From positions 1-34,245 of the IMG/VR virus record IMGVR_UViG_3300026519_000041: a DNA stretch of 34,245 bases. The stretch is one strand, 5' to 3'. This document shows, piece by piece, positions 4,412-31,459 of the stretch (its first letter is position 1; each line of letters begins with the position of its first letter). Below the pieces are notes generated by a model that was not told the DNA's origin, did no database searches, and saw only the letters and a program-made list of their open reading frames with translations. Made by a program: the position numbers and the translations under genes. The stretch comes from a virus.

Positions 4412-4645
4412 ATGGCTTATGATTTGGCAACAGCTCAGACGATGTATGATGAATATATCAAAGCTGAAAAGGCTGCTCTTAAAAATCAATCTTATACCAT
4501 AGCCGACAAAAAACTACAACGTGCAGACCTTCTAGAGATACGAAAGGGTCGTGACTACTGGAAAAAACAACTTGACATTGCAGACCCCACGAACCCACGT
4601 AAAAGCGGCATAAATGTAAAAACGGTGAAGTACAACTATGCCTAA
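4412..4645 (+). CDS. gpW-like head-tail joining protein (DUF6148 type)
   Basis: A 77-residue protein with the pattern of small gpW/DUF6148 proteins: an N-terminal helix (YDLATAQTMYDEYIKAEKAAL), a central QSYTIADKKLQRADLLEIRKGRDYWKKQL hairpin and helix, and a short basic tail. In lambda, gpW sits between the packaging ATPase and the portal, and fills the portal channel before tail attachment; the position here is the same. GGAG eight bases before the ATG is a good ribosome site. The end overlaps the portal start by eight bases. Confidence 0.8.
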   Translation: MAYDLATAQTMYDEYIKAEKAALKNQSYTIADKKLQRADLLEIRKGRDYWKKQLDIADPTNPRKSGINVKTVKYNYA

Positions 4646-6179: not shown

Positions 6180-7143
6180 ATGTAGAGTGGGAGGAACATG
6201 CTATATAGAGTCAAAAGGTATCGACCTTGAAAACAAAAGAGTGCCTGTCATTCTCTCAAATGAAAGCGATGTATTGCGTCATAGTTGGAACGATGGCATT
6301 TACTATTTAAAGCTTGTACATACTGATGAGAGCATCGACCTAGAACGTGCTGACATACTCTCTTTGTTTATAAATCACAACACCCATGAACTTCCTATAG
6401 GTAGATTTGAAAATGTACGCATAGAAGACAGCAAACTGAAAGCAGAAGCCATTTTTGATGAAGATGATGAAGTATCTATGAAAATCTTTAAAAAGCTTTC
6501 AAAAGGGTTTTTACAGTCATTTTCTGTGGGGATTGACATTGATAAGAAGGTGCTTACTAAAGAAGTAGACGGAATCAAATATTATGATGTTACAAAATGG
6601 TCTATAGATGAAGCAAGCGTGGTTGGCATCCCTGCTATCCCTACTGCAAAAGTGGGCTTAGAACATGAAGTGGTAGTTATACCAACTGCGGACAGCGACA
6701 AACTAGCAAAATTAAACCAAAGGACTGAAATGGATTTCAATAAAGAAAATTTTGAAACATTAGAACAAATCGTTTCTGACCTCAAGGCTGAACTTGCAAA
6801 AGAGAAGCTACAGGCAGATGATGGTGTACAGGCAGCAGTAAAAGCAGAGGCAGAGAGACTAAAAAGTATAGTAGTGTCTGTTGGTGTTGAGGCATTAAGT
6901 ATTGAGAGTGTTGCAGAGGCTGTTTTCACAGCAGGAGCTACGCTTACAGATGCAGAAGCATCCATGTTTAGACATGAAAAGGCACAAAAACAGAAAATGG
7001 CTAAAGCCATCAAAAAAGATGGCGAAGATTTGGCTAAAAAAGTAGAACATATTGATGGTGAGGGTGGAGACGATGAAGAACTTACTCATGCACAAAAAGC
7101 ACATGCTATGGCTATGGCAAAAACAAAAAGAGGAGAAAAATAA
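6172..7143 (+). CDS. HK97-family (U35) prohead protease fused to scaffold
   Basis: 323 residues. The first about 165 form a U35-type protease: the catalytic His is H69 in FINHNTHELPIGR, the nucleophile Ser is S116 or S118 in GFLQSFSVGI, and the typical closing strand WSIDEASVVGIPAIPTAKVGL follows. Residues about 175-323 are acidic, alanine/lysine-rich and coiled, as in a built-in scaffolding domain (compare lambda gpC/Nu3, though lambda uses a different protease fold). The protein should shape and then mature the prohead. An internal start near M187 could yield scaffold alone; this is not proven. It lies between portal and decoration genes, with its stop overlapping the latter. Confidence 0.88.
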   Translation: MPKCRVGGTCYIESKGIDLENKRVPVILSNESDVLRHSWNDGIYYLKLVHTDESIDLERADILSLFINHNTHELPIGRFENVRIEDSKLKAEAIFDEDDEVSMKIFKKLSKGFLQSFSVGIDIDKKVLTKEVDGIKYYDVTKWSIDEASVVGIPAIPTAKVGLEHEVVVIPTADSDKLAKLNQRTEMDFNKENFETLEQIVSDLKAELAKEKLQADDGVQAAVKAEAERLKSIVVSVGVEALSIESVAEAVFTAGATLTDAEASMFRHEKAQKQKMAKAIKKDGEDLAKKVEHIDGEGGDDEELTHAQKAHAMAMAKTKRGEK

Positions 7144-7481
7144 TGGCACAACCAGTGAATACAGAGAGCTATGACGGAAACAGTATCGTCCTTAGTGAAT
7201 GGAAAGTGGACGGTAATGGAGTACTAGTAACAGGTACTTACACAAAAGGTGCAGTACTTGGTAAAAATAGAGGAGGGAACTTCGAGTTAACTGCTGATGC
7301 AACTAAAGCAGAAGCTATTTTACTTGCAGATACAGTTGTTACTGATGCTACTGCAAATGCTCCTATAGTGATGGGTGGCGAAGTAGCTGAAGAAGACTTA
7401 AACTATGGGGGAGTACTTACAGCAGATGATGTAAGAGACTCACTTCGAGTTAAAAACATTTATTTGAAAAAGAGAGGTTAA
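7143..7481 (+). CDS. Head decoration protein D
   Basis: A 112-residue protein of the lambda gpD family. The middle contains the family pattern of a beta-rich GVLVTGTYTKGAVLGKN followed by FELTADATKAEAILLADTVVTDA, and ends with a DLNYGGV segment. Trimers should cap three-fold axes of the expanded capsid. Its ATG overlaps the stop of the protease-scaffold gene by one base, and AGGAG lies eight bases upstream. Directly followed by the major capsid gene, as in lambda. Confidence 0.88.
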   Translation: MAQPVNTESYDGNSIVLSEWKVDGNGVLVTGTYTKGAVLGKNRGGNFELTADATKAEAILLADTVVTDATANAPIVMGGEVAEEDLNYGGVLTADDVRDSLRVKNIYLKKRG

Positions 7482-7483
7482 TT

Positions 7484-8530
7484 ATGCCATTAGGACTAGG
7501 AAGTAGAGAACTAACACAACAAACAAACAGAGTATATACGCCTGCTGGGCTTATTACTGCCCTCTTTTTTGCTGATAACAAATTTTCAGAGACAAAGTAT
7601 GTCGATGTCGTAGTGACAAAGGGTGGTAGAAAGCTTGCACCGTATGTTTCTCCTAAGGTAGCTGGTAAAGTGATGCGTAAAGAGGGTGGCAAAGTAAATA
7701 CTTATGAACCACCTATGCTAAAGCCTAAGTTTGTTACAGATGCTGACAGCATTTTAGATCAACAGTCAGTGTTTTTTGGTGATGGTATGGATGCATCTGA
7801 GAGAGCAGTAGAGCAACTTCTTAAAGATGAAGAAGAAATTAAAGCGTCTATCAGCAGAACAAAAGAAGCACAGGCTGTAAGTCTTGTGACTACGGGTAAG
7901 TTTACTGCAAAAGGTGAAGGTACAGAAGAAGAGTTTGACTATGGTATGGATTCTAACAACATCGAAGTCTTAACAGGTATTGCACTTTGGACAGATGCAA
8001 ACTCTAATCCTTTAAAAGCGTTAGGCGATTGGCGTACCGATGTCTTTAAGGCAACAGGTAAAAACCCTAACGCGGTAGTCATGGGTGTAGATGTTTCAGA
8101 AGCATTTACTTCAAATGATGCAGTCATTAAAGCTTTTGACACTAGAAGCATCAATATGGGTGAACTTAGACCAGCTCCTATGCTAGATGAACAGGGCAAT
8201 GAAATCGCAGGCGTGACATACATCGGACGCATCACCAAGCTTGGTATGGATGTGTACTCATATGTAGACTTTGTAGAAGATGAAGATGAAGTAGTGCAAG
8301 AAGTGTTCCCTGCTGATAAACTCGTCATGGGTCGCACAAACGCAGGTGGTCACTTTGCACATGGTGCTATTACTGATAAAAAAGAGTTAGGTACAGAAGT
8401 ATTTGTAGGTGAAGTTTTTGTCAAATCATGGCAAGAAAATGACCCAGATGATGAGTTTATCATGGGTAAATCCCGTCCACTTGCTATCCCTTCAGATATT
8501 GACTCGTTCAAGTGTGTAAAGGCGGTTTAA
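7484..8530 (+). CDS. Major capsid protein E
   Basis: 348 residues, close to lambda gpE (341), with the HK97 fold expected for Phage_cap_E. Supporting segments are the N-terminal FFADNKFSETKYVDVVVTKG, the APYVSPKVAGKVMRKEGGKVNTYEPPMLKPK stretch, the long helix SERAVEQLLKDEEEIKASISRTKE, the ALGDWRTDVFKATGKNPNAVVMG strand-helix, and the YVDFVEDEDEVVQEVFPADKLVMG segment near the C-terminus. AGAGAGG ahead of the ATG is a strong ribosome site, as expected for the most abundant virion protein. Confidence 0.93.
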   Translation: MPLGLGSRELTQQTNRVYTPAGLITALFFADNKFSETKYVDVVVTKGGRKLAPYVSPKVAGKVMRKEGGKVNTYEPPMLKPKFVTDADSILDQQSVFFGDGMDASERAVEQLLKDEEEIKASISRTKEAQAVSLVTTGKFTAKGEGTEEEFDYGMDSNNIEVLTGIALWTDANSNPLKALGDWRTDVFKATGKNPNAVVMGVDVSEAFTSNDAVIKAFDTRSINMGELRPAPMLDEQGNEIAGVTYIGRITKLGMDVYSYVDFVEDEDEVVQEVFPADKLVMGRTNAGGHFAHGAITDKKELGTEVFVGEVFVKSWQENDPDDEFIMGKSRPLAIPSDIDSFKCVKAV

Positions 8531-8531
8531 G

Positions 8532-8981
8532 ATGTTTAAAATGCATTGTAAGTTTACCACAGATAAAGGCACCTTGGATGGTGGCTCTGTGGTAGATAAA
8601 AAAACCTTAAAAAAACACTTTTCACAAGATGACATAGATGGCTACATGGAAGAGGGGTTAATCTCTGAAATAAAGATGCCAGAAACAACTGCTGTTAAAA
8701 AAGACAGTGATGATGACATGACACTTGAAGAGATGCTGGAAGCTCCAAAGGGTTCTTTGAAGTCGGCACAGTTAAATGCTGTGTGTGATAGCTATGGACT
8801 TGAGACCGAGGGCAATATGCCTGAGCGTGTTAAGCGCATTGAAGCATTTGAGTCACTCTTGGATGCAGACTTATCTGAGCTAGATGAAGAAGAGCTTGAC
8901 CAAGTGGCTATTTACTATGGTGTGGACACTGAGCTTGATGAGATAGTGAAAATTCAAGCTATTGAAGAGGCTAGTGCGTAA
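8532..8981 (+). CDS. Head protein in the gpFI position, SAP-like domain
   Basis: A 149-residue acidic protein. It starts one base after the capsid stop, so it is probably coupled to it. Residues about 60-110 (MLEAPKGSLKSAQLNAVCDSYGLETEGNMPERVKRI) resemble a SAP/HeH-like helix-extended-loop-helix that often binds DNA; the N-terminal 45 residues resemble small head proteins with a VVDKKTLKKHF motif. In gene order it matches lambda gpFI, a packaging helper that interacts with terminase and prohead. Function is inferred from position. Confidence 0.6.
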   Translation: MFKMHCKFTTDKGTLDGGSVVDKKTLKKHFSQDDIDGYMEEGLISEIKMPETTAVKKDSDDDMTLEEMLEAPKGSLKSAQLNAVCDSYGLETEGNMPERVKRIEAFESLLDADLSELDEEELDQVAIYYGVDTELDEIVKIQAIEEASA

Positions 8982-9262
8982 TGACTATGGACTTGCTAGA
9001 TGATTTTAACTGTGCCTACGATGACTTCGGAGTAGATGCGGTTATAAACGATGCTTCTAGTCCAGTCAGAATGATGTTTGACTCTGGCATAGAAGAATAT
9101 GACACGAAGATTATACCTATGCGTATACGTGTATCAGACGCTATTACTAGCGATGACAAGGTTGTGATGCAAGGTAAAACTTTTGCAGTGCTACGGGTAA
9201 CTCCATACGGAGACCAGAACGAAGAAAATACAGTAATGCTTAGTAGGAAAAAAAGTGACTAG
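8981..9262 (+). CDS. Head-tail joining protein FII-like
   Basis: 93 residues: an N-terminal helix (LLDDFNCAYDDFGVDAVIND), then beta strands PVRMMFDSG, KIIPMRIRVSDAI and a DKVVMQGKTFAVLRVTP hairpin, the layout of gpFII-type connectors (tail attachment proteins) that sit between portal complex and tail terminator. ATG overlaps the upstream stop (TAATG). The end overlaps the next gene by eight bases. Confidence 0.7.
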   Translation: MTMDLLDDFNCAYDDFGVDAVINDASSPVRMMFDSGIEEYDTKIIPMRIRVSDAITSDDKVVMQGKTFAVLRVTPYGDQNEENTVMLSRKKSD

Positions 9263-9581
9263 ACGCACACAAGAAACTGCGAAACAGGACATAGTAGACA
9301 TCATTTCTAGTGCTGAACCCAAGGTTAAGACTAGAGATATCGAGATTATAGAATGGAAGGCTGCTGGAAGTGGTACCGTCTTGCATGTAGCTGTGAGGAT
9401 AGATGACTCTACAGATACCATGAGTGACAATCTGTTGGTGGGGTTAGAAAACCACAACAACCAAGACTGTGAGCATACTACATTTTTGGAAGCAAAAAGA
9501 GACTGGGGTAAGGAAGGCATGGACACTATTGTCCTGTTTTTTAAAGCTTCATTAAATATGAAAGAAGAAGGAGAAATATAA
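9255..9581 (+). CDS. Tail terminator (gpU-position) protein
   Basis: A 108-residue protein beginning with GTG inside the end of the FII-like gene (overlap eight bases, GGAAAAAAA upstream). Strands IEIIEWKAAGSGTVLHVAVRID and TIVLFFKASLNM flank a helical segment. It occupies the place of lambda gpU, the ring that ends tail-tube growth and joins the head. Lambda has gpZ before gpU; here gpZ-like protein is at 630-1355. No strong sequence match can be claimed, so the call is mainly positional. Its stop overlaps the tail-tube start. Confidence 0.5.
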   Translation: MTRRTQETAKQDIVDIISSAEPKVKTRDIEIIEWKAAGSGTVLHVAVRIDDSTDTMSDNLLVGLENHNNQDCEHTTFLEAKRDWGKEGMDTIVLFFKASLNMKEEGEI

Positions 9582-10045
9582 TGGCAAAGACAGGTAAAAC
9601 TACGTATGCAGGTACGGTATTGGAGTTTCAAAAGAAAGGTGCTACCGCCGCATGGGGTAAGGTGCTTTGTGCTACTGATGCATTAGAAATTGATTGGGGA
9701 GATAAAAAAGAAGCAAAAGATATTTGTTTGGAAGCTCTTCCAGGGGAAAAGAACTTTGACGAACCTGAGTACTCTTCTCAGGATTTAGATTACTATTGGA
9801 CGCAACAGGGAACAAACACTGCTGATTCTGTAATCAAAACAGCATTTGATACAGATGTAGATGATGACCAAATCGTGGAAGTGCGTACTACAATGAAAAA
9901 TGAAACAATTGAAGTGGTAGGAACTACTTATGTAGTGCCGTACAAAGTCATCGGGTACAAACATATGGGTGAGACAGACGGAAAGTGGAAAACAAAAGTG
10001 AAGTTACATCAAGTTGGTGCTCCAGTAGAAGCTGTAGCAGCGTAA
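9581..10045 (+). CDS. Major tail tube protein (gpV-like)
   Basis: 154 residues with a tail-tube fold pattern: an N-terminal strand TTYAGTVLEFQKKG, the acidic LEIDWGDKKEAKDICLEALPG loop, a central polymerisation loop region around DEPEYSSQDLDYYWTQQG, and C-terminal strands TYVVPYKVIGYKHMGE and KTKVKLHQVG. Hexamers stack into the tail tube around the tape measure. AAGGAGAAATATA before ATG is a strong ribosome site, fitting high expression. It lacks the extra C-terminal Ig domain of lambda gpV. Confidence 0.82.
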   Translation: MAKTGKTTYAGTVLEFQKKGATAAWGKVLCATDALEIDWGDKKEAKDICLEALPGEKNFDEPEYSSQDLDYYWTQQGTNTADSVIKTAFDTDVDDDQIVEVRTTMKNETIEVVGTTYVVPYKVIGYKHMGETDGKWKTKVKLHQVGAPVEAVAA

Positions 10046-10055
10046 AGGAAATAAT

Positions 10056-10439
10056 ATGGCAGATGCAGTAGTAGGGAAAGAAGATTTCTTAAACAAATTT
10101 GTACATGAGACTAAAGTGGTCCATGTAGAGGCATGGGATGTCGATGTCGAGATCAGGAAGATGTCGGTCAAAGAGAAGAACACAATTGATGCTGTTGTTT
10201 ATGGGGATGTAGACTTAGTAGAAGGGGCTGTAGCAAAATATAAGATGAGTGAGCAAGGGACGCAAAATGCAAAAGTTGTGTCCATCATTTTGGTATCTCC
10301 AAAAATGAAGCAAGAGGAGTTAGAGGCACTGTCTTCTGACGCTCAAGACGGCATTGCAGAACTTGTAAAAATATATGGGGAGTGGACTAGCCCAAAAAAG
10401 TTGAGTACGAAAACAAAGAGTACGTCAAAAGAAAAGTAG
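10056..10439 (+). CDS. Tail assembly chaperone G-like (zero frame)
   Basis: 127 residues. Small acidic chaperone between the tube and tape-measure genes, the invariant position of the G/G-T pair in long-tailed phages. It should bind the tape measure and recruit tube subunits. A canonical A AAA AAG heptamer at 10394-10400, near the end of the gene, lets some ribosomes shift back one base and enter the downstream frame. Unshifted ribosomes read 12 more lysine/threonine/serine-rich codons and stop at 10437-10439. AAGGAAATAAT precedes the ATG. Confidence 0.85.
   Translation: MADAVVGKEDFLNKFVHETKVVHVEAWDVDVEIRKMSVKEKNTIDAVVYGDVDLVEGAVAKYKMSEQGTQNAKVVSIILVSPKMKQEELEALSSDAQDGIAELVKIYGEWTSPKKLSTKTKSTSKEK
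10394..10400 (+). promoter_or_regulatory. Programmed -1 frameshift site (A AAA AAG)
   Basis: The seven bases AAAAAAG are in the correct zero-frame phasing (A AAA AAG, after CC), the most efficient bacterial slippery heptamer, also used in dnaX. The -1 frame is open from 10391, immediately after a TAG at 10388-10390, to 10705, so the slip lies within the first codons of the open overlap. This fits the lambda G/G-T mechanism. Confidence 0.85.
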
Positions 10440-10705
10440 CACACAAACTCGGGTATAGAAGTGTCTTTGAGATGGAGTCGTTATTGCCATCAGATGAGTA
10501 TGAGGGGTGGGTATCTTATTTTATAGATATGCCCTCCTCAAATGAGATACAAAGAGCAATGATGATGCAACAGATGTATTATGGTAATGGGGGTAAGGAA
10601 ATAGATGTTAACGCATTTATGATACATCCTCTAAGTAGTGTAGATGAGCGAAGAGATGTGTCAACTATGACAGCAGAAGAAATGCATGAAATATATGGAG
10701 TGTAG
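10400..10705 (+). CDS. T domain of G-T tail assembly chaperone (-1 frame)
   Basis: After the slip at 10394-10400 translation continues as VEYENKEYVKRKVAHKLGYRS and then SVFEMESLLPSDEYEGWVSYFIDMP, giving a G-T fusion of about 216 residues (115 zero-frame plus 101 shifted). The 24 codons before the ATG at 10472 are plainly coding, so this ATG is probably not the real start. The T domain has the usual conserved W/YF/P pattern (EGWVSYFIDMPS) and should contact tail-tube subunits while the G part binds the tape measure. An automatic caller would give a separate 77-residue ORF at 10472. Confidence 0.8.
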   Translation, partial: VEYENKEYVKRKVAHKLGYRSVFEMESLLPSDEYEGWVSYFIDMPSSNEIQRAMMMQQMYYGNGGKEIDVNAFMIHPLSSVDERRDVSTMTAEEMHEIYGV

Positions 10706-10706
10706 T

Positions 10707-11054
10707 ATGAAAGAAGACATCAAAATAAATATAAGCCCTACTTTTCTTAATGCAGTGAGGGCTGTTGATTTCTCTGCTATTTCTCTACCAGATTTTACCA
10801 CACTAGAGAAAAATAAAGTCGACAAAGATACAGAAGATGTGGTTTTAGATATAGAGCTGGATGGTGAAATAAAGTCTTACCGTTTAGGGCTAAATGTATC
10901 TGAGCCTATACCTGATGATGTTTCTAAAATAGATTTATGGTTTTCTAAAAATATAGAAGATAAAGATGATTTACTAAATATGGTTCACGAGTTTGACTTG
11001 AATTTATATGATATTTTTAAAAATATAGATTTTACTGAGGTTCATAATGGCTAA
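10707..11054 (+). CDS. Hypothetical tail protein before tape measure
   Basis: 115 residues from ATG 10707, one base after the G-T stop and eight bases after GGAG. An ATG at 10686 in the same frame lies inside the upstream gene and is less likely. The N-terminal SPTFLNAVRAVDFSAISLPDF helix is followed by acidic strand/helix DTEDVVLDIELDGEIKSYRLGLNV, and the C-terminus is acidic. No family recognised. Its end overlaps the tape measure start by eight bases, so it is probably made with it. Confidence 0.65.
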   Translation: MKEDIKINISPTFLNAVRAVDFSAISLPDFTTLEKNKVDKDTEDVVLDIELDGEIKSYRLGLNVSEPIPDDVSKIDLWFSKNIEDKDDLLNMVHEFDLNLYDIFKNIDFTEVHNG

Positions 11055-16799: not shown

Positions 16800-18224
16800 A
16801 TGCCAACAAATTTAACAGATGTCTTGAATGGTGAAGATAAACCTACTATAGAAGCAATAGCGAAATCAGCTATAGTTCAAGAAAAGGCGGTCAAGTCAGA
16901 CATTGAAAGTAAAACTCCCAATAAATGGGTAGGAGCAGAGTTGCTGGGTGGTGTGATTCGCGATATTAAACCATCCACACAGCCACGAATTGCCCCGTCA
17001 TTGCAGACAAAAATACTGAAAGAAGCGGTAGTGCTTGGAAAAAAGGCTTGGTATGTAATCTCCCCATCATACATATGTGAAGTTGTCACAGGGAATGTAG
17101 CAGACCCGTCACTTCCTAGTAGTTCCATGAATGGCAGTTGGGATATGTGGAGAACTGGAATCATAAGGAAGGTATCAAGGGCAGCAGTTTTTAAGAAACC
17201 TGAGGTAAGTGGCACTTGGACAGATTATAAGAGTACTGGCATGTTTGATGGGATTGACATGTTGTCATTTTCGTATAAAAGAACAACTGTGGCTGGGTCT
17301 ATTGCTACTTTTACCGATATAAAAATAGACGAAACTGGCATTTGTAAAATAGCATTTTTAGCAACAACTACGTCTAACTCTTCCCAAGAAGTAAAAGTAA
17401 ATGGGGTAACCGCTGGGGTGTTTGACTTATCTTCCCCAACAGGTGGACTGTATATAAAAGTCATAGATGTACCGTGTGGAAATGGAATTAAGACTATCAC
17501 AATTGAGAATGTCTCAGGTATCTTCTATTTATTGGGAGCAAATTATTGTCAACTATCAGATGCTAAAGATAGTCTGGATGTCGATGACTGTTATGTATTT
17601 ACGTCTAATTATGGGTATACCAGTAATCGAGGAGCACATGATTATGCGTTTAAAAGTAGAACAAATAATCTGTGGGGTGGTTCCTACCATGGTGGACAAA
17701 CAAGTCTAGCAGAACCTTTTGCGACAGACGGTAAGGGCAAGACTATGCTAAATACTGATACGGGGATGGTATTGGCAAAAGGCCTTGTTATCCACCAAAA
17801 AACACGCATTACCTGGAATGCTAATGAGAGTTTTGATATAGATGAAATACGTAAATTTGGAGATGTAGAGATATTTGAGAAGGTTGTGGGGGTTGGTTTT
17901 CTACAGGCACACACAATGCATTTTGGGATGACGGGTACATCTCCTTATTTTGACACTATTTTTGGGAATAAATATATAAAAGACATGCCTGACGGACTAG
18001 AGATTATAGGAAAAACAAACGACACGATACAGATAGCAGAAGAGGTGGGGAGGATGTTGGTAGCAGAGTGGAGTGAACCAGAGATTTATGAGTGTCTGCC
18101 TTATGATGGCAATACTGTCTCTGCTGTAACCGGTGCTTACAATAAGGTATATCAAGCACCGATACGGAATACAAATGTTGCTGTAAGTAGATTTTCTTAT
18201 AGCTTTAATCGAAAATTCATGTAA
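16800..18224 (+). CDS. Tail-tip/fibre protein of unknown family
   Basis: 474 residues, starting five bases after the previous gene. The N-terminal 60 residues are helical. Residues about 120-250 contain a beta-sandwich-like region (GTWTDYKSTGMFDGIDMLSFSY, GICKIAFLATTTSNSSQEVKVNGV) resembling a carbohydrate-binding fold. The C-terminal half has many aromatic and glycine residues around NLWGGSYHGGQTSLAEPF and a motif HTMHFGMTG. I do not recognise the family. Position next to Ig- and BspA-repeat proteins suggests a receptor-binding or adaptor protein of the tail. Confidence 0.6.
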   Translation: MPTNLTDVLNGEDKPTIEAIAKSAIVQEKAVKSDIESKTPNKWVGAELLGGVIRDIKPSTQPRIAPSLQTKILKEAVVLGKKAWYVISPSYICEVVTGNVADPSLPSSSMNGSWDMWRTGIIRKVSRAAVFKKPEVSGTWTDYKSTGMFDGIDMLSFSYKRTTVAGSIATFTDIKIDETGICKIAFLATTTSNSSQEVKVNGVTAGVFDLSSPTGGLYIKVIDVPCGNGIKTITIENVSGIFYLLGANYCQLSDAKDSLDVDDCYVFTSNYGYTSNRGAHDYAFKSRTNNLWGGSYHGGQTSLAEPFATDGKGKTMLNTDTGMVLAKGLVIHQKTRITWNANESFDIDEIRKFGDVEIFEKVVGVGFLQAHTMHFGMTGTSPYFDTIFGNKYIKDMPDGLEIIGKTNDTIQIAEEVGRMLVAEWSEPEIYECLPYDGNTVSAVTGAYNKVYQAPIRNTNVAVSRFSYSFNRKFM

Positions 18225-18262
18225 TGATGATAGTAATAATAATAATAATAGGAATAATTATG
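18224..18262 (+). repeat. ATA trinucleotide microsatellite at a gene start
   Basis: A run of TAATAATAATAATAATA lies between an ATG at 18224/18227 and an in-frame ATG at 18260 with AGGA upstream. Because the unit is three bases, length changes keep frame but alter spacing, or the number of isoleucines if the first ATG is used. Confidence 0.7.
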
Positions 18263-20647
18263 GCAAGTATATACGTATTGAGCACAGACACAATAAATTC
18301 GAAACAAGGTGCAACAGCAGATGACGTACAAGATGGTAATCTGACAGATGATATAGTGGCAACACCTGCTACTGTAGATACTGATATAGGCACAAACAAT
18401 GTAGTGCTAACTGTTACAGATAGCGATGGGAACACAACAACAGTTAGCAATACTGTGACGAAGATAGATTATACAACTATAGAGCAGACTAGAGAAACTC
18501 TAATGCAGATAATTGAAGATTGGGCGAATGACCCTAGTGAATTGAACACTCAAAAAATTGTCCATGCGAATGTTGGTAAGATAGGTGATTTTAATAATTT
18601 TTTCAATTATCACATATACCCAGAAACAGTTTGGCAGAGGATTAGAAACTTCAATGAAGACATTAGTGGCTGGGATGTTTCATCAGGAGTAAATTTTGAA
18701 GGCATGTTCAGATATACTGACCTATTTAATCAAGACATTAGTGGCTGGGATGTTTCATCAGGTAAATCTTTTACCGTCATGTTCTTGAATGCTAATGGGT
18801 TTAATCAAGACATTAGTGGTTGGGATGTTTCTAATTCAATAAGCTCTATTGATTTTAGTAAGTCTTCTGCACTAGAAGATGCTCACAATCCTTTTTATGA
18901 ATATGTTGACACGGAAGCCCCAGTTATCACAATGCAGGGGTTACAGAGAATAGATATGGTTAAGGGGGTTGAATATGTAGATGCAGGAGCGACAGCAACT
19001 GATACGGACAATGGAAACTTGACAAATCTGATTACTGTTTCAAACTCTGTAAACAGTAATATCCCTGGGGAATATAGAATAGACTACGAGGTCAGTGATG
19101 CTTCAGGGAATACTGCTACTTTAACTAGAGTGGTAAGAGTATGGGATTACCCACGGTATGATCTTACAGAAGATACGTGGAGGAGTAACCAAAAAGACTA
19201 TATTATGGATAGTGCAAACCATGTTATGGCATTAACAATATTGGTCACCTCTCCTTTTATGGGAGAAGTTGTTTATGTAGGTGACGGTACCGAACCTGCT
19301 GGAACTACATGGACGGAGAACGCCGTGGATTACCCTAAAGATGGGACACTAGACTTAAGTAATACGGATGGGAAAGGCTCAAAGGAGATTAGAACGTATC
19401 TTATAGAAAAGGATGGTTTTTGGGAGAGAACAGTTATCTACAAGATAGGAGAAGAGATGTTATCGGTGCAGCATACGCAAAAAGCAGGGAATGTGTGTGA
19501 TTTGCTCATTCAGTCTTCTGCCAACCCTGCTGTTACGCGTACTGACTTTCCTTATACTCCCACGGGGCAGATGTGGGTTATTGGGAAAACGCCACCACCG
19601 TATATTATGGCGATCATCTCTGACACTGCACCAGTAATATTGCTAAATGGAACACAAGAAGTGCTCACTACTGTAGGAGCAGTATATGTAGACGCAGGGG
19701 CTACTGCAAACGATTTGGAGAGTGGAGACTTGACATCTAGTATAACTACAACAAATTCAGTAGATACAGCGACAGCAGGAACATATGCAGTCCACTACAA
19801 TGTCTCTGATGCACAAGGAAATCAAGCAGTTACAAAGGGTAGAACAGTCAGAGTACTTGAAAATGTGTTGGCATTTCAAAATGTATTTGCCAACAACACG
19901 GTAACTTTCGCAAACAATGAAACACATATCGTTGCAGATACGAGCAACACATATACATATATGAGAGTATCAAACGCAGGCGAAAACGGAAGTTTGACAA
20001 GAGATTTTCAGATAGGAGATAAAGTGCTTATCACTATGAAAGCTAGGGCTTCTGACTCTAGCAGTTACTTGTTTGCCCCTTTAGGTCTAGGATTAACGTT
20101 TGATGCTATTGCCTTTGATGCTGATAATGTGTGGAAAGACTTTATAGTAGAAGCAGAGGTTATGTCGGGGTATACAAATCTGGCTTTTATAGGGTTTAAA
20201 CTGAATAATGTTGCGGACACAATAGATGTGAAAGAGATAGGGGTATACACAGAGTCTCTCACAGCACAATCTACTGCGTTAACTAAGAGTCAACTTGTAC
20301 AGAGGATTGCAGATTGGGCTATAGATCCAACAGTAGAGAATGCGTCACTTATAGAGAATGCGAACACTGGTAGCATCACAAATATGAACAGGCTCTTAGC
20401 TATGTACACAGATACATATGCACAATACAACTTTACACCCGAGCAAATATATACATTTCGAACATTCAATATAGATATTACTGGTTGGGATACAAACAGT
20501 GTTGTGGATATGGACTTTATGCTTTATGGGTTGATCGGGTTGGAAAATCAGGACCTCAGTGCATGGGATGTATCGAATGTCACTACACATGCTAACTTCA
20601 ATACAGATGTAGGGGCGAATGTCACTCTACCAAATTTTACTAACTAA
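18260..20647 (+). CDS. Tail fibre with DUF5011 and BspA-type repeat modules
   Basis: 795 residues from ATG 18260 (AGGA at -10); the alternative ATG at 18224 adds an isoleucine-rich leader from a microsatellite. Modules in order: a partial DUF5011 Ig domain (ADDVQDGNLTDDI), BspA/DUF285-like repeats with three FNxDISGWDVS units exactly 25 codons apart, a full DUF5011 domain, a beta linker region with WTENAVDYPKDGTLDLS, another DUF5011 domain (GATANDLESGDLTSSI, AGTYAVHYNVSDAQGN), a carbohydrate-binding-like domain, and a second divergent BspA module (FNIDITGWDTNS, QDLSAWDVSN). BspA repeats are known from surface adhesins. It is probably a host-binding fibre, assembled by module shuffling. No intramolecular chaperone domain seen. 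Confidence 0.75.
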   Translation: MASIYVLSTDTINSKQGATADDVQDGNLTDDIVATPATVDTDIGTNNVVLTVTDSDGNTTTVSNTVTKIDYTTIEQTRETLMQIIEDWANDPSELNTQKIVHANVGKIGDFNNFFNYHIYPETVWQRIRNFNEDISGWDVSSGVNFEGMFRYTDLFNQDISGWDVSSGKSFTVMFLNANGFNQDISGWDVSNSISSIDFSKSSALEDAHNPFYEYVDTEAPVITMQGLQRIDMVKGVEYVDAGATATDTDNGNLTNLITVSNSVNSNIPGEYRIDYEVSDASGNTATLTRVVRVWDYPRYDLTEDTWRSNQKDYIMDSANHVMALTILVTSPFMGEVVYVGDGTEPAGTTWTENAVDYPKDGTLDLSNTDGKGSKEIRTYLIEKDGFWERTVIYKIGEEMLSVQHTQKAGNVCDLLIQSSANPAVTRTDFPYTPTGQMWVIGKTPPPYIMAIISDTAPVILLNGTQEVLTTVGAVYVDAGATANDLESGDLTSSITTTNSVDTATAGTYAVHYNVSDAQGNQAVTKGRTVRVLENVLAFQNVFANNTVTFANNETHIVADTSNTYTYMRVSNAGENGSLTRDFQIGDKVLITMKARASDSSSYLFAPLGLGLTFDAIAFDADNVWKDFIVEAEVMSGYTNLAFIGFKLNNVADTIDVKEIGVYTESLTAQSTALTKSQLVQRIADWAIDPTVENASLIENANTGSITNMNRLLAMYTDTYAQYNFTPEQIYTFRTFNIDITGWDTNSVVDMDFMLYGLIGLENQDLSAWDVSNVTTHANFNTDVGANVTLPNFTN
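18659..18837 (+). repeat. Three 75-bp-spaced BspA repeat units
   Basis: Words beginning GACATTAGTGGCTGGGATGT occur at 18659, 18734 and, with one change, 18809, each 75 bases apart. The first two copies are identical over 29 bases, so the duplication is recent and could recombine. Confidence 0.9.
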
Positions 20648-23176: not shown

Positions 23177-23265
23177 ATATATTTAAAATCGCTTTTATGT
23201 GCGTAGAGGTGGCTATTGCTGCGGCGGTGGTCTGGACTTTTTTTTATTATAAAGGATATATATGA
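23173..23265 (+). CDS. 30-residue membrane protein in lysis cassette
   Basis: An ATG overlaps the stop of the holin gene (ATGA) and the gene's own stop overlaps the amidase ATG (ATGA), so it is locked between them by coupling. The product, MNIFKIAFMCVEVAIAAAVV to the end at KGYI, is a single membrane helix with a short tail. It may be an antiholin, pinholin-like helper or just a coupling element. No homologue recognised. Confidence 0.6.
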   Translation: MNIFKIAFMCVEVAIAAAVVWTFFYYKGYI

Positions 23266-23987
23266 ACCATTCACATTTTAAGCTTATAGAACACGAGACT
23301 AACTCGAACCTAAGGGCAACAGTTGATGCAGGGGTCATTACCGAAATAGAGTGGATGTTAGACAAAGGTCTTGATGTCCATGAATTAGAGGGGCATCATG
23401 CTACGGTGGTCAGTAAGAATACTAATGAAAAACATAGAGGATATGTCATGAAAATAGCATTGGTCATAGGACATAGAAAGAGTAGCCAAGGAGCGTATGG
23501 TAGTGAGGGACTTAGCGAATATGCCTTTTACAAAGAATTTCTCTCAGAACTTCCCCCGTATCTGTCGGATAATCACTCGATAAAAATATTTGAAAGAAAA
23601 GACAAAGGTAGAGGGTATTCTGGGCGTATGCGTGAGTTACATCAGAGTATAGACGCGTGGGGTGCTAAGATTAGTATATCTTTCCATTTTAACGCATCTT
23701 CACGACAAGGAGTGAACGGTCATGAGGTACTATATTGCTCACAAAAAGGTAGAAAGTTAGCCCTAAAACTTGACAAAAAACTAGACCAGTACCTAGACAA
23801 TAGAGACAGAAAAATAAAAAAGAGAAATAAAAGACAACGGGGTGGTGGTTTTTTATGTAGAGGGAGGTCGGTTAGTATCTTAATAGAGCCCTTCTTTGCA
23901 TCTCATCAGTATCTATTTATCGAGGGAGGAGAGGAGAGAGATAACCTATTGTCTGCTGTCTCTGAATTTATTAATGAACTTGATTGA
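23262..23987 (+). CDS. N-acetylmuramoyl-L-alanine amidase (endolysin)
   Basis: 241 residues. The C-terminal 179 residues form an Amidase_3-type zinc amidase: H71 (ALVIGHRKSSQGAYG), E86 (GLSEYAF), H142 (SISFHFNAS) are the expected zinc ligands and E209 (SILIEPFF) the catalytic glutamate. It cleaves the amide bond between muramic acid and peptide. An extra N-terminal 62 residues of unknown fold precede M63 (23448), where MKIALVIGH would be the classical start with GGA upstream; both starts may be used. No signal peptide, so export needs the holin. Last rightward late gene. Confidence 0.88.
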   Translation: MNHSHFKLIEHETNSNLRATVDAGVITEIEWMLDKGLDVHELEGHHATVVSKNTNEKHRGYVMKIALVIGHRKSSQGAYGSEGLSEYAFYKEFLSELPPYLSDNHSIKIFERKDKGRGYSGRMRELHQSIDAWGAKISISFHFNASSRQGVNGHEVLYCSQKGRKLALKLDKKLDQYLDNRDRKIKKRNKRQRGGGFLCRGRSVSILIEPFFASHQYLFIEGGEERDNLLSAVSEFINELD

Positions 23988-24172: not shown

Positions 24173-24430
24173 CTAGAATTTCAAATACTTTCTTAACAAA
24201 TATAAATCTATATAATCGTCTAATTTCTTTAAGCTTTTTTGGCAATTATCTTTCTTTATCTTTGCATCAAGTTTATAAAGAGTGTCTTTGTTTATATCCA
24301 ATAACTTAGCAATATCTGTACGCTTGATGTGGCTACTGTTTTCTTTTTCATTTTTTATGCTCTCTAAAGAATGCAGATTGTCTACAGTCTCTCCACTCCC
24401 CTCAATGATGGCGTAGTTTTTCCAACCCAT
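24173..24430 (-). CDS. Small helix-turn-helix protein, possible regulator
   Basis: 85 residues. Residues about 35-58 (IKRTDIAKLLDINKDTLYKLDAKI) read as a helix-turn-helix with the turn at LDINKDT. The rest is charged and helical. It faces away from the accessory genes at 24684 and shares with them a 250-base AT-rich control region holding palindromes, so local control of those genes is a reasonable inference. The frame stays open for over 100 bases upstream of the ATG without another common start codon, so the true start is uncertain. Confidence 0.6.
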   Translation of the reverse strand: MGWKNYAIIEGSGETVDNLHSLESIKNEKENSSHIKRTDIAKLLDINKDTLYKLDAKIKKDNCQKSLKKLDDYIDLYLLRKYLKF

Positions 24431-24602: not shown

Positions 24603-24611
24603 TGCTATACT
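24603..24611 (+). promoter_or_regulatory. Extended -10 promoter for accessory genes
   Basis: TGCTATACT (24603-24611) is an extended -10 hexamer; Campylobacterota sigma-70 promoters often lack a -35 box. It lies about 70 bases before the membrane-protein gene at 24684. A second similar motif TGCTATATT at 24508-24516 could be another start or part of the operator region. Confidence 0.5.
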
Positions 24612-24683: not shown

Positions 24684-24923
24684 ATGCAACCAGTTTACTA
24701 TTTCCCCATGGGAGTACTCGTAGTGTCTATTTTAATATTGATGTATGTTGACTATATTCTTAAGAGAGATTTTATGAAGATACACATGAAAGAGACAGGG
24801 TGCAAGGGGTCCTTTAGGGTAGGTCATAATCTAGGGTTTTGTGGGGCTATGCTAGGTAGACAAAAATATAATACGCCTCACTATTGCTATAGGTGCAAGT
24901 CGTGGTTTAATAAAAAGGATTAA
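24684..24923 (+). CDS. Small membrane protein with CxxC, accessory gene
   Basis: 79 residues with one membrane helix at about 8-27 (FPMGVLVVSILILMYVDYIL), then a soluble basic part with cysteines at 40, 53, 68 and 71; the last pair, YCYRCKSWF, looks like half of a small metal site. CCAAGGAGATAAAATA before the ATG is a strong ribosome site. First gene of a two-gene unit with the lipoprotein that follows after three bases, both likely transcribed from the promoter at 24603. Not recognised as a structural protein; candidate lysogenic-conversion gene. Confidence 0.65.
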   Translation: MQPVYYFPMGVLVVSILILMYVDYILKRDFMKIHMKETGCKGSFRVGHNLGFCGAMLGRQKYNTPHYCYRCKSWFNKKD

Positions 24924-24926
24924 GAT

Positions 24927-26003
24927 ATGAGAAAAATATATATGGTTGCAATAATATTATTTATAGTTGGGTGTGGTAATGGAACTCCTATAGCTACAAG
25001 CAGTACAGATGAAGTGACAGGAGAAGACAATGGTCTTGAATTATTTTTACAGAATCAAGAGCAGTATGAAGTGGCAGAAGACCAAGGTAGTGACTTAGCT
25101 GATGTCGCTCAGGAGCACAACCAAACGGCTCAAGTAGAGACACTTGAGCATAATATTACCAAAGTGGAAGAGGTTATACACACTCAAGATTCTGTGGTAG
25201 AACAAAATAGCACAACAATTGATAATCCTACAGCAGATGATAGTGTTGTGTTTATAGAGCATAACACTCCTACGGTTGTTGTAGATACTATGGAAAATGA
25301 TTTAAATGTGACAACGGTTACCACTAATGATGTGGTACTGCAGGAAGATAACAACACTATTGATGAACCAAATATAGTTACTGTTGAGGAGGAGGTAGAA
25401 ACAGAAGATTTGAATGTCTCCTCTGCGGCGGATGACAATAACACTATTGTTAAAGAGACGAACACCACCACTATTGAAGATACAAACAGTACAAAGTTAA
25501 GAGTTAGGCATTTACAAATTACTGAACAGTATCATTGGAACACGTTTAACTTTGTGAAGCGGTTCGAGGAGATGATGCAGAGGGACAGAAATATTCTTAC
25601 TGATGGACTCAAAGAAAGAAATTTTAGAAAACTATCCTCTAGTGAGGTAAGGGCAAAAATACGCATATTTAGGGATACTCACTCTTTTAGATGGGTTTCG
25701 GATATGGACAATTATCAAGTCAGAGACTACTATACGATCTTGCAAGAAGGTAATAATTTTACTGGCGATTGTGAAGACTGGGCGTTTACTTTTATGAATT
25801 ACTTATTGAGCATAGGAGCAGACCCGAAAGACTTATATTATACTATTGGTATATGGGAAAAACAAGTACATGCGTGGCTAGAGATAGACACCACAGAGGG
25901 TAGAACCTTGATAAATTACTATACTATTACTCAAGGTGAAGAACAGTACAAAGTGGCTTCTGAGACGTTCAAAACTATGGTCGTGGTTAAGTATGTGGAG
26001 TAG
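24927..26003 (+). CDS. Lipoprotein with BTLCP transglutaminase-like cysteine protease domain
   Basis: 358 residues. The signal peptide MRKIYMVAIILFIVGC ends in a lipobox with Cys16. Residues about 30-190 are a low-complexity acidic Asn/Thr/Val linker rich in DNNT and NTTT words, long enough to cross the periplasm. Residues about 195-358 form a bacterial transglutaminase-like cysteine proteinase (DUF920/peptidase C93): W256, then DNYQVRDYY, the nucleophile C282 in GDCEDWA, H315 in VHAWLEID and D321. LapG, the best-known member, cleaves large surface adhesins in the periplasm. Here the gene sits between endolysin and attP with its own promoter, the position of a moron gene expressed in the lysogen. 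Substrate unknown. Confidence 0.8.
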   Translation: MRKIYMVAIILFIVGCGNGTPIATSSTDEVTGEDNGLELFLQNQEQYEVAEDQGSDLADVAQEHNQTAQVETLEHNITKVEEVIHTQDSVVEQNSTTIDNPTADDSVVFIEHNTPTVVVDTMENDLNVTTVTTNDVVLQEDNNTIDEPNIVTVEEEVETEDLNVSSAADDNNTIVKETNTTTIEDTNSTKLRVRHLQITEQYHWNTFNFVKRFEEMMQRDRNILTDGLKERNFRKLSSSEVRAKIRIFRDTHSFRWVSDMDNYQVRDYYTILQEGNNFTGDCEDWAFTFMNYLLSIGADPKDLYYTIGIWEKQVHAWLEIDTTEGRTLINYYTITQGEEQYKVASETFKTMVVVKYVE

Positions 26004-26245
26004 GCTGTACTAATATTGTACTAAAATAATTAGTGTGGTGTATTATTTGACGTATATATGGGGGTAGAAGGGGATAATGGTACCGCAGGTCGGATTTAGG
26101 ACTATAAGTATAGCTTGAACTATTAAAGACTATGCAAAGTACTGCAAATAAAGGGTTTAAGGGGTACAATTTGTTTGCATAATTCTTGAATTTATAGTAA
26201 GAACTATGCAAATACTACTATAGGACTGTACCAATGCTGTACCAA
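26004..26245. other. Phage attachment site attP with arm-type repeats
   Basis: This 240-base stretch runs to the start of the integrase gene. TGTACyAA pairs with an exact 11-bp period flank it: 26006/26017 on the left and 26227/26238 on the right, the latter overlapping the integrase start codon. Between them, AAGAnTATGCAAA-type sites occur at 26125-26138, 26199-26212 and, inverted, at 26174-26187. At 26078-26097 the sequence TGGTACCGCAGGTCGGATTT read leftward looks like the last 20 bases of a tRNA (T-arm end, acceptor strand, CCA), the usual identity core for tyrosine integrases. No full tRNA is present. Confidence 0.65.
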
Positions 26246-27310
26246 TCTAATAAATTTCAAGGGGTTTTTCATAGCCCTTTATTAAATGGCGATAAGACAT
26301 ACTATATCAAATATTATGTTGATGGGAAGCAGTATAAGAAAAAAATAGGTAGACATTCGGAAGGGGTGCGGGAGGCGTTTTGTTTTAGGCTTAGAAGTGA
26401 GCAGATAAACAATACACGATATGACATATCAAACAAAGTCAATATTACAATAGATGAACTTGCAGAAGAATATCATGCTACCAAGACAATAAACAAAACA
26501 CATAAAGAGATGATGAGTAGATACGCTTATGCAATTAAGCCATTTTTTAAAAACAAACTTGTCTGTAAAATTACCGAAAATGATATTTTTAAACTACAGT
26601 CAAAGCTAATAAAGACTAGTACGAAAAGAGATGCTATTGTAACTATGGCTTCTTCTACAGTAAACTATTATATTACTCAAATATCTTCGATGTTGAGATT
26701 TGCAGTGTCGAGAGGGTACGTGAATAGAAATGTGGCCATGAACATTCGGTCACTCAAAGAAGACAATGGAAGAGATAGATACTTAGAGCCTAGTGAGGTA
26801 GATGAGCTTGTGGCTACGATAGACCATGATGTAGACCTCCTACTATTCGTTGAACTAAGTATGAGTACAGGTGGACGCATGACCGCGGTCATGAACATAG
26901 TTAAAAAAGATGTGAATTTACAAAACAAAACAGTAATGATAGAAGATGAAAAAGGGGGAGGGTACTATACTGCATTTTTAAATAGTGTAGTATTAAAACT
27001 TCTTAAAGAGGCAGTAGTGGGGTTGGCGAAGAATGATAGGCTATTTGTGTCAAATAATAGACGTATGCAAAGGCAGTTAAAAAATGTTTTAGACGGGATG
27101 TTTAATGAAGGGCTAGCGATACATGATAGACGCAATAGGGTTGTGATACACACTCTTAGGCATACTTTTGCTAGTCTTCTAGCTATTAATGGCACTCCAA
27201 TTTTTACAATACAAAAGCTATTGAATCATAAAGATATAAAGCAGACAATGCGGTATGCGAAGTTGAGTCCAGATAGTGGGCGTGATAATGTTGAGGGGAT
27301 AAGAGGCTAA
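26234..27310 (+). CDS. int: Tyrosine recombinase / phage integrase
   Basis: 358 residues. The N-terminal part has an arm-binding-like strand region (YYIKYYVDGKQYKKKIGRHSEG), residues about 70-170 form the SAM-like core-binding domain, and the catalytic domain has R215 (STGGRMTAV), probable K240 in the EDEKGGG hairpin, H306 and R309 (HTLRHTFAS), H332 (LLNHKDI) and nucleophile Y341 (MRYAKL). All catalytic residues are present. It should catalyse integration and excision at the adjacent attP. Repeats of the arm type overlap its start codon, so its own product or Xis could repress it. Ends overlapping the leftward Xis-like gene. Confidence 0.93.
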   Translation: MLYQSNKFQGVFHSPLLNGDKTYYIKYYVDGKQYKKKIGRHSEGVREAFCFRLRSEQINNTRYDISNKVNITIDELAEEYHATKTINKTHKEMMSRYAYAIKPFFKNKLVCKITENDIFKLQSKLIKTSTKRDAIVTMASSTVNYYITQISSMLRFAVSRGYVNRNVAMNIRSLKEDNGRDRYLEPSEVDELVATIDHDVDLLLFVELSMSTGGRMTAVMNIVKKDVNLQNKTVMIEDEKGGGYYTAFLNSVVLKLLKEAVVGLAKNDRLFVSNNRRMQRQLKNVLDGMFNEGLAIHDRRNRVVIHTLRHTFASLLAINGTPIFTIQKLLNHKDIKQTMRYAKLSPDSGRDNVEGIRG

Positions 27311-29941: not shown

Positions 29942-30496
29942 TTAAAATAGTGTGTCATGTCGTTTTTCTTTTTGTTTCGCTTTCTCGATCTGTTTAAATA
30001 TCATCTCTAAGATGTTTACGCTCATGCTGTTCCCTGCTTGCTTGTACATCTGAGAGTCTGATACTACTTGTAAAAAGTCGTCTGGGAAGTCTTGCAACCG
30101 TAAACACTCTCTAGGTGTGAGCTTGCGTACCCCCCACCAAGCACCATTTAGAAAAAGTGTGCCTTGGTTACATGCTGTATCTAGCGTTTGGGCTACTTGT
30201 TTGCCTACTCTGCCTATGCGTGTTTTAGAGTTAGGCATAGATAGATTTATGCTGTCCTTGTCTACGGCTTTTTCGTAGCCACATTTTGTTGCAGATGGGA
30301 CCATGACATAGTTGTCTTTTTGCACCGTGGTAAGTGTGTTTAAAGTGCCACTCTCATTTACTTCTAAACGTTGAGACACTTCCTCTCCCACGGTACGTGA
30401 GCTTGGATTATCTACATTTCTGCCACGGCTTGCGGCTATACATGCGTCAGGGCAAATCCCTGTGAGTATCTTCGGTTCTTGATGGCCACCTTGCAT
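29942..30496 (-). CDS. Methyltransferase C-terminal part (motifs IX-X)
   Basis: 184 codons from an internal ATG; the coding frame in fact extends to about 30520. It contains a target-region repeat (TMQGGHQEPKI, RTVGEEVSQRLEV), motif IX RKLTPRECLRLQDFPDDF and motif X QAGNSMSVNI, which complete the AdoMet fold of a C5 methyltransferase. Same frame as the catalytic part. Unlikely to be made alone; included because it is clearly coding. Confidence 0.75.
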   Translation of the reverse strand: MQGGHQEPKILTGICPDACIAASRGRNVDNPSSRTVGEEVSQRLEVNESGTLNTLTTVQKDNYVMVPSATKCGYEKAVDKDSINLSMPNSKTRIGRVGKQVAQTLDTACNQGTLFLNGAWWGVRKLTPRECLRLQDFPDDFLQVVSDSQMYKQAGNSMSVNILEMIFKQIEKAKQKEKRHDTLF

Positions 30497-30508
30497 TGTG
30501 GTAAGAGC

Positions 30509-30523
30509 GGGGGATACCCCCCC
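30509..30523 (-). repeat. Second G tract (seven Gs) with adjoining inverted C run
   Basis: On the coding strand GGGGGGG (30523-30517), then TAT and CCCCC (to 30509). Eight Gs would restore frame. The G and C runs are complementary around TAT and can form a hairpin, which may promote slippage. Confidence 0.75.
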
Positions 30524-30772
30524 GTTTTGTAGACGCGTTTGAGTTGGTCTGCACCCTTCATCTGTAACCGTCCTGCTATCTTGATACCCTCACCTTTGTT
30601 TGTAGTGAGGGTAGGGCTTACATATTTTTCATCAAAGACAACGCCGTTCATGCCGTTGCCACTTGGGTTTACATTGAGTAGTGGAGATGGGCTAGGGATA
30701 GCCCTTAATAAGAAGTTGTCCGTTGGTCTGTTCCCTACTTTTGTGCTTAGACACACTGCGGTACCCACCCCC
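30517..30772 (-). pseudogene. Target-recognition region in shifted frame
   Basis: Between the two G tracts the coding frame is that of the ORF 30804-30436. It reads GTAVCLSTKVGNRPTDNFLL, then GVVFDEKYVSPTLTTNKGEG and KGADQLKRVYKTGG, exactly the phrases expected between motifs VIII and IX (SPTLTT repeats). After 30517 this frame becomes nonsense while the other frame gives VSPALTTMQGGHQEPKI. Confidence 0.75.
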
Positions 30773-31459
30773 ATTTGCAGGGGTAAATTTAAAGCCATTG
30801 CCACGCTCTAAATGTTTGGAACTATGAGAGGCAAAGCCTTTAAGTAGTTTGTGACTTAGGTAGTATTTTTCTGAGACTTCATCTTCTAAGACATCCTTTA
30901 GTCGTTTTTTTAAATCAATACGTGGTGCAAAATTAAAATGATGATACATATCTGCATCTAAAAAGCCTACGAGATAAAGTCTTTCTCTGTTTTGTGGTAC
31001 TCCGTAGTGTTTTGTGTTCAATACATCGTGGTGGCAGTGATAGCCTATGTCTCTCAAAGCTTGTATAAACTCTTTGATAGTGTGTCCATGGTCTATGCTT
31101 AGCATCCCTTTTACATTTTCATAGATGATGATAGGAGGTTTGCACTCGTTTATTACTCTAATATATTGGTATATAAGCTGTCCTCGTTCATCTTCTGTGC
31201 CCTCACGCATTCCTGCGATACTAAAAGCCTGACATGGACTACCTCCTACAAGTACATCTACTTTGCCCTTGTATTGTGTTGCATCTAGGTCATTTACATC
31301 TTCATGAAAATGTTTTGAGTCTATGGCATGGTTTGCGATGTAGCTTTCTCTGGCAAATTTATCCCATTCGCAAGCGAAAATAGTCTGCACATCGTCATAA
31401 ACACGGTTTGCACCTTGTTCGGGTGCTCCTATGCCGCTAAAAAGTGTGGCTAAACGCAT
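30692..31459 (-). CDS. Methyltransferase catalytic part (motifs I-VIII)
   Basis: 255 residues as it stands. Motif I LFSGIGAPEQG (6-16) binds AdoMet; motif IV GGSPCQAFS holds the catalytic C76; ENV at 114-116 is motif VI; QNRERLYLVGF (156-166) is motif VIII. These mark a Dcm-type DNA cytosine-C5 methyltransferase. After about residue 231 (KFTPANGGG) the frame is wrong and 24 unrelated residues follow before the stop. Without target-recognition region and motifs IX-X it should be inactive unless frame is restored. A phage methyltransferase would protect its DNA from host restriction or alter host expression. Confidence 0.85.
   Translation of the reverse strand: MRLATLFSGIGAPEQGANRVYDDVQTIFACEWDKFARESYIANHAIDSKHFHEDVNDLDATQYKGKVDVLVGGSPCQAFSIAGMREGTEDERGQLIYQYIRVINECKPPIIIYENVKGMLSIDHGHTIKEFIQALRDIGYHCHHDVLNTKHYGVPQNRERLYLVGFLDADMYHHFNFAPRIDLKKRLKDVLEDEVSEKYYLSHKLLKGFASHSSKHLERGNGFKFTPANGGGYRSVSKHKSREQTNGQLLIKGYP
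30764..30772 (-). repeat. First G tract (GGGGGTGGG) at frameshift
   Basis: On the coding strand five Gs, one T and three Gs. The frame upstream is correct for the catalytic part and the frame downstream is correct for the target region only if one base is removed here. Confidence 0.7.

Follow-up and report, generated by a model that had tools for sequence, protein, structure and literature searches.

A predicted lipoprotein with a LapG-like BTLCP domain and a sequon-rich acidic tether as a candidate lysogenic-conversion factor of a probable Campylobacterota phage

The virus record IMGVR_UViG_3300026519_000041 (34,245 bp; analysed whole and called the window below) encodes a 358-residue predicted lipoprotein (24927..26003, + strand) in which a C-terminal LapG-like BTLCP domain follows a lipobox and a long acidic tether with nine D/E-x-N-x-S/T sequons. 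Taken as a whole, the explanation that we favour, a tethered, PglB-glycosylated envelope protease acting as a lysogenic-conversion factor, has in our judgement an even chance of being right. Its anatomical part is very probably correct, and the envelope-trimming role is finely balanced. In its most specific form, the prophage would exploit host PglB to produce a lipid-tethered BTLCP protease, armoured with glycans, for remodelling the lysogen surface by adhesin shedding or receptor removal; this form is tentative and falls somewhat short of an even chance.

The window contains terminase, portal, capsid and tail genes. Against 50,697 phage records, both the terminase (34% identity) and the portal protein (49% identity) find their best match in Sulfurimonas phage SNW-1. 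The nearest matches of the tyrosine integrase (26234..27310, +; PF00589, 4.8e-24) are integrases of Helicobacter prophages and Sulfurimonas phages, with the Helicobacter prophages closest and SNW-1 on the same match list. On the strength of these matches the host is most likely a member of the Campylobacterota, and the phage most likely a temperate one that infects relatives of Sulfurimonas and Helicobacter. Judged by sequence, terminase, portal and integrase each independently indicate this lineage, in which PglB occurs. Elsewhere in the window, a dcm-type cytosine methyltransferase is split over two frames (29942-31459, −). One of the frame changes coincides with a tract of seven G (30517-30523), the only G/C run of at least 7 found there. 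Since phase variation through poly-G tracts is a typical trait of the Campylobacterota, the methyltransferase may be phase-variable. A tail-region protein (18224-20647, +) combines DUF285 (BspA-like) with three bacterial surface Ig-like repeats and is likely, from this domain content, to be a receptor-binding or surface-sticking fibre.

Along the window, the lysis group is followed by a gap with a converging ORF, a two-gene unit, a short intergenic stretch and the integrase, downstream of which most genes lie on the minus strand. The final gene of the late/lysis operon encodes an Amidase_3 endolysin (23262..23987, +; PF01520, 1.8e-16; phrog_435), for which a scan found no related loci. The two-gene unit starts about 700 bp past its end, and the converging 85-aa ORF in between (24173..24430, −) could be assigned to no convincing family. 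This gap and the converging ORF rule out the BTLCP gene as a member of the late operon, and the initial annotation had rightly placed it outside. The gene is the second of the tight unit. The first (24684..24923, +) is co-directional, its stop lying 3 bp ahead of the BTLCP start codon, and encodes a 79-aa protein with a single transmembrane segment and a Cys-rich tail. This orphan has no Pfam, PHROG or NCBIfam match and no convincing phage relative, and is a possible partner or regulator of the BTLCP protein. A promoter of its own had also been proposed for the gene. A scan for consensus sigma-70 promoters found no site above chance, and the hint of a promoter that persists is a possible extended -10 element picked out by eye (TGC-TATACT; 24603..24611, +), itself not above chance in the scan.

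The 230-bp gap between the BTLCP gene and the integrase holds two pairs of repeats, TGTACYAATRYTGTACYAA at 26006 and 26227 and ACTATGCAAA at 26129 and 26203, which by window shuffles and TRF mark a putative attP region (26004..26246, +); each pair is matched in 1 of 100 window shuffles. There are no tRNA genes in the window, which rules out a tRNA-type att site. Because the attP-like region adjoins the BTLCP gene, the gene would border one end of the prophage once integrated. A survey of related phages, called for at the outset, found no BTLCP match in five records, some of them fragments: SNW-1 and the integrase-related L002, L003, L005 and L008. The gene thus has the features of a moron gene, namely a separate unit outside the late operon, a site near att and int, and absence from relatives. 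By position and by this absence, it is most likely an accessory lysogenic-conversion gene, as had been suggested.

The N-terminus of the protein, read from the translation, consists of an n-region (MRKIY), a hydrophobic core and the lipobox F-I-V-G-C16 (residues 1-16; 24927..24974, +), from which we infer lipidation at C16; the lipid anchor first put forward is borne out to this extent. The acidic tether (residues 19-192; 24981..25502, +) carries a net charge of about -37 to -39 and falls on the disordered side of a charge-hydropathy plot. In AlphaFold2 models, residues 94-204 have pLDDT < 50 and residues 36-94 form a low-confidence helix. The linker is acidic, as originally described, and is about 175 rather than 160 residues long.

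Nine D/E-x-N-x-S/T sequons, absent from the initial annotation, are distributed along the tether (N65, 76, 94, 127, 142, 163, 171, 179 and 187; 25113..25493, +). PglB, the Campylobacter-type oligosaccharyltransferase, uses this motif as its acceptor. Only 0.85 sequons are expected, and none of 50,000 composition-preserving shuffles reaches nine. All nine N-x-S/T sites of residues 19-192 have an acid at -2, which the PglB enzymes of C. jejuni and H. pullorum require (PMC6025236, PMC4894442). Reverse, shifted and near-miss control motifs occur at chance level, and codons vary between the sequon sites. In a set of 1,355 proteins drawn from the window and the collected loci, this protein is the only strong outlier (9 sequons vs 0.76 expected), the next protein having 3 vs 0.5. 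The motif is therefore present beyond chance in a flexible region, as would be expected of a PglB substrate. Together, the sequons and the phage lineage make N-glycosylation of the tether likely. With a tether packed with sites that the host would glycosylate, the prophage product is probably a tethered protease that bears a sugar coat and trims something in the host envelope. A literature search of limited coverage found no phage-encoded PglB substrate.

The sequon excess could also be a side effect of an octad repeat of the low-complexity or beta-helix type, in which case the protease reading may still hold. We consider this unlikely. The last four sequons do form a sub-array with a period of 8 residues (163/171/179/187; 25407..25502, +), and a scan of viral contigs found octad D-x-N-x-T repeats in non-exported, spike-like phage proteins, a resemblance that would count against glycosylation. 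However, with the octad array removed, five sequons are left vs 0.54 expected (P = 0.0001). The control motifs, as noted, occur at chance level. The array is not beta in the AlphaFold2 model, and the phage lineage independently indicates bacteria that bear PglB. A simple tandem repeat was rejected as the source of the sequons, since TRF finds no tandem repeat within the BTLCP gene, though weak DNA repeats link some units.

The folded end of the protein is a BTLCP (Peptidase_C93) domain (residues 193-358; 25503..26000, +). PF06035 scores 27.0 bits for residues 190-358, right at the Pfam cut-off of 27, and 24.2 bits, under the cut-off, with the full-length protein; it is matched by all 48 aligned sequences. 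The 'peptidase' family phrog_12671 is matched at 4.6e-8. A single-sequence search of the PDB returned nothing relevant, and a profile search led to LapG. The AlphaFold2 model of the domain has a mean pLDDT of 80 and a core of about 90. Structural matching with Foldseek and VIA-align placed LapG best in both, with Z scores of 10.2 for P. fluorescens LapG (4u65) and 9.9 for L. pneumophila LapG (4fgo); the next fold relatives score 7.5. The assignment as a LapG-like BTLCP domain, made from the translation alone, is thus upheld by family, PHROG and fold.

The catalytic Cys lies in the motif G280-D-C282-E-D (25764..25778, +), which includes the calcium-site acids and is kept across the aligned relatives except in one copy that lacks the Cys. 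The catalytic His, H315 (25869..25871, +), is invariant in the alignments. Both residues stand in the Cys-His-Asp triad originally named (C282, H315, D321), but D321 is not the third catalytic residue. It ends the strand opened by H315 and falls in an alignment column that is not conserved; this column and the place of D321 in the model rule it out. N330 (25914..25916, +) occupies the column of the conserved Asp in 'LDN' and closes the strand next to the H315 strand in the AlphaFold2 model. A second alignment (A2) put the Asp column at T335 instead; we prefer N330, which is favoured by the local alignment and by where the strands end in the model. On the model, then, the third catalytic residue is N330, with Asn for Asp, giving Cys-His-Asn. 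The Caulobacter protein HvyA, a periplasmic BTLCP, is functional as a D241N variant, i.e. with Cys-His-Asn (PMC4241560). This makes activity of the window protein plausible by analogy.

HvyA also offers another view of the substrate. It prevents capsulation and governs sensitivity to phage phiCr30 (PMC4241560), and the sequence relatives of the window domain include Caulobacter phage peptidases. The protein might accordingly be a regulator that alters phage access by acting on a component of capsule or exopolysaccharide export instead of on an adhesin. HvyA, however, is a soluble protein from a capsule locus, no polysaccharide-related feature was recognised in the window, and homology of the domain does not determine the substrate, so that we regard this variant as doubtful.

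The tethered protease has no close relatives in viral contigs, as judged from single-protein scans with the full protein and with the domain, and motif scans of the contigs for GDCEDWA(F) gave remote or chance matches only. It is remote from the other phage BTLCPs, with identity over short stretches reaching about 40% at most, and in the tree the domain sits on a branch too long (3.02) to be placed. With such divergence, the substrate may differ from that of LapG. Phage BTLCPs are otherwise widespread. In phiCbK-type Caulobacter phages the gene forms an isolated unit. In several contigs the domain is part of tail-region proteins that measure roughly 500-1,200 residues, stand-alone proteins of 120-140 aa lie amid holin-like and late genes (L070, L084, L085), and L087 has a lipoprotein form. 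With many of them in tail proteins or near lysis genes, the family has roles beyond surface trimming. None of the phage BTLCPs checked shares the sequon-rich tether, and among those examined we found no other with this lipid anchor and tether.

Several of these loci have features of their own. Contig L064 (239,960 bp) has six BTLCP genes clustered at 4622-10747, several with lipoprotein-like signals and one with Asp for the catalytic Cys. In L057, L058, L062, L063, L065, L067, L072 and L079, the domain is embedded in large proteins, several of them in tail regions and several with a start resembling MGxATIxxxGxGxYxIxLxKEPGKS, which raises a possible virion-associated use of the fold. In two Caulobacter phages (L012, 3731-4685; L013, 2773-3722), the BTLCP gene shares its unit with a conserved soluble ORF of 67-68 aa, and the unit runs opposite to neighbouring genes. 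In a river-virus survey, BTLCP is the most frequently identified auxiliary gene (PMC11283719). The initial remark that no phage system of this kind is established therefore holds for function, our literature search having found no demonstrated function for any phage BTLCP, but not for the occurrence of such proteins in phages.

The BTLCPs near lysis genes suggest a further role, that of a lysis or cell-wall accessory: an outer-membrane-tethered amidase or endopeptidase that aids release or entry. The 120-140-aa proteins amid holin-like and late genes and the fusions to tail-region proteins fit such a role, and the superfamily fold includes the phage pseudomurein lysins PeiP and PeiW (Z 7.5 and 6.6). 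Yet a lysis cassette, comprising a spanin-like protein and the Amidase_3 endolysin, is already present in the window. The BTLCP gene lies outside this cassette and encodes a lipobox, and the sequons imply that its product regularly resides in the periplasm; we hold this role to be quite improbable. Very unlikely, finally, is a catalytically idle surface lipoprotein that excludes superinfection by binding or by its glycan-coated tether, with the domain as a binding module, since the protein retains the Cys, the His and every calcium-site acid, and HvyA works with an Asn, for all that the Asn itself, the high divergence and the L064 tandem copy without Cys might suggest it.

In the tethered-protease reading that we prefer, the BTLCP protein would be exported by Sec and then lipidated at C16, the lipid fixing it to a membrane so that it faces the periplasm or the surface. 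Host PglB would N-glycosylate the 175-residue acidic tether at up to nine sites, and the glycans would stiffen the linker and shield it from the proteases to which it would otherwise be prone. The folded domain, a predicted calcium-dependent Cys-His-Asn protease, would cut one or a few host envelope proteins, such as an adhesin, a receptor or a component that serves to display surface polysaccharide. The surface of the lysogen would thereby change to the benefit of the prophage.

A lipoprotein BTLCP beside a putative attP, with the anatomy of a proven adhesin protease, provides a concrete and testable case of a phage BTLCP. The sequon array suggests an evolutionary history in the periplasm of Campylobacterota hosts. 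To our knowledge, it would be the first sign of a phage protein adapted to the N-glycosylation machinery of these bacteria. If the reading is correct, the protein is a phage-encoded bacterial N-glycoprotein, and prophage carriage, protein glycosylation and attachment are linked in the Campylobacterota.

Among known systems, LapG of P. fluorescens and Legionella (4u65, 4fgo) cuts a giant adhesin at [T/A/P]AAG under the control of LapD. The only such motif in the window is in the tape measure protein. LapG and the window protein have in common the BTLCP fold (Z about 10), the Cys-His pair and the GDCED motif with its calcium-site acids. LapG is a soluble periplasmic protein with a cleaved Sec signal, a Cys-His-Asp triad and LapD as partner, whereas the window protein is phage-borne and has a lipobox at C16, the 175-residue tether and Asn330 as third residue. 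HvyA shares the BTLCP domain and the tolerated Asn, and differs in being soluble, encoded in a capsule locus and cell-cycle controlled.

The phiCbK-type 'peptidase' (for example CcrKarma gp042 and CcrBL10 gp041) is likewise a phage BTLCP in an isolated small transcription unit, with an N-terminal membrane segment and a third residue that is not Asp. It is about 250 aa long, belongs to giant phages, and lacks the lipobox, the long acidic tether and the sequon array. The river-virus BTLCPs are also phage-encoded, and a role in surface modification or biofilms is suggested for them; the passages of that survey used for comparison describe no anchor or tether (PMC11283719).

The closest architectural parallel is DvhG of Desulfovibrio vulgaris, a membrane-bound adhesin protease with a disordered linker of about 180 residues that, when bare, is probably lost to stray proteolytic cuts (PMC13090378). 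DvhG is anchored by a transmembrane helix in place of a lipid, has Cys-His-Asp, and is encoded in a chromosomal operon with its adhesin and a c-di-GMP switch; no sequon array is reported for it in the passages compared, and no DvhD-like regulator was recognised in the window. Common to both proteins are the membrane anchor, the disordered linker of about 180 residues (19-192 here) and the BTLCP core (193-358 here), and this shared architecture favours the tethered-protease reading. The sequons, in turn, ally the window protein with the PglB N-glycoproteins of Campylobacter and Helicobacter (PMC6025236, PMC4894442), which carry D/E-x-N-x-S/T in exported Campylobacterota proteins as here; the examples compared are host proteins with few sites, and the window protein is phage-encoded and has nine.
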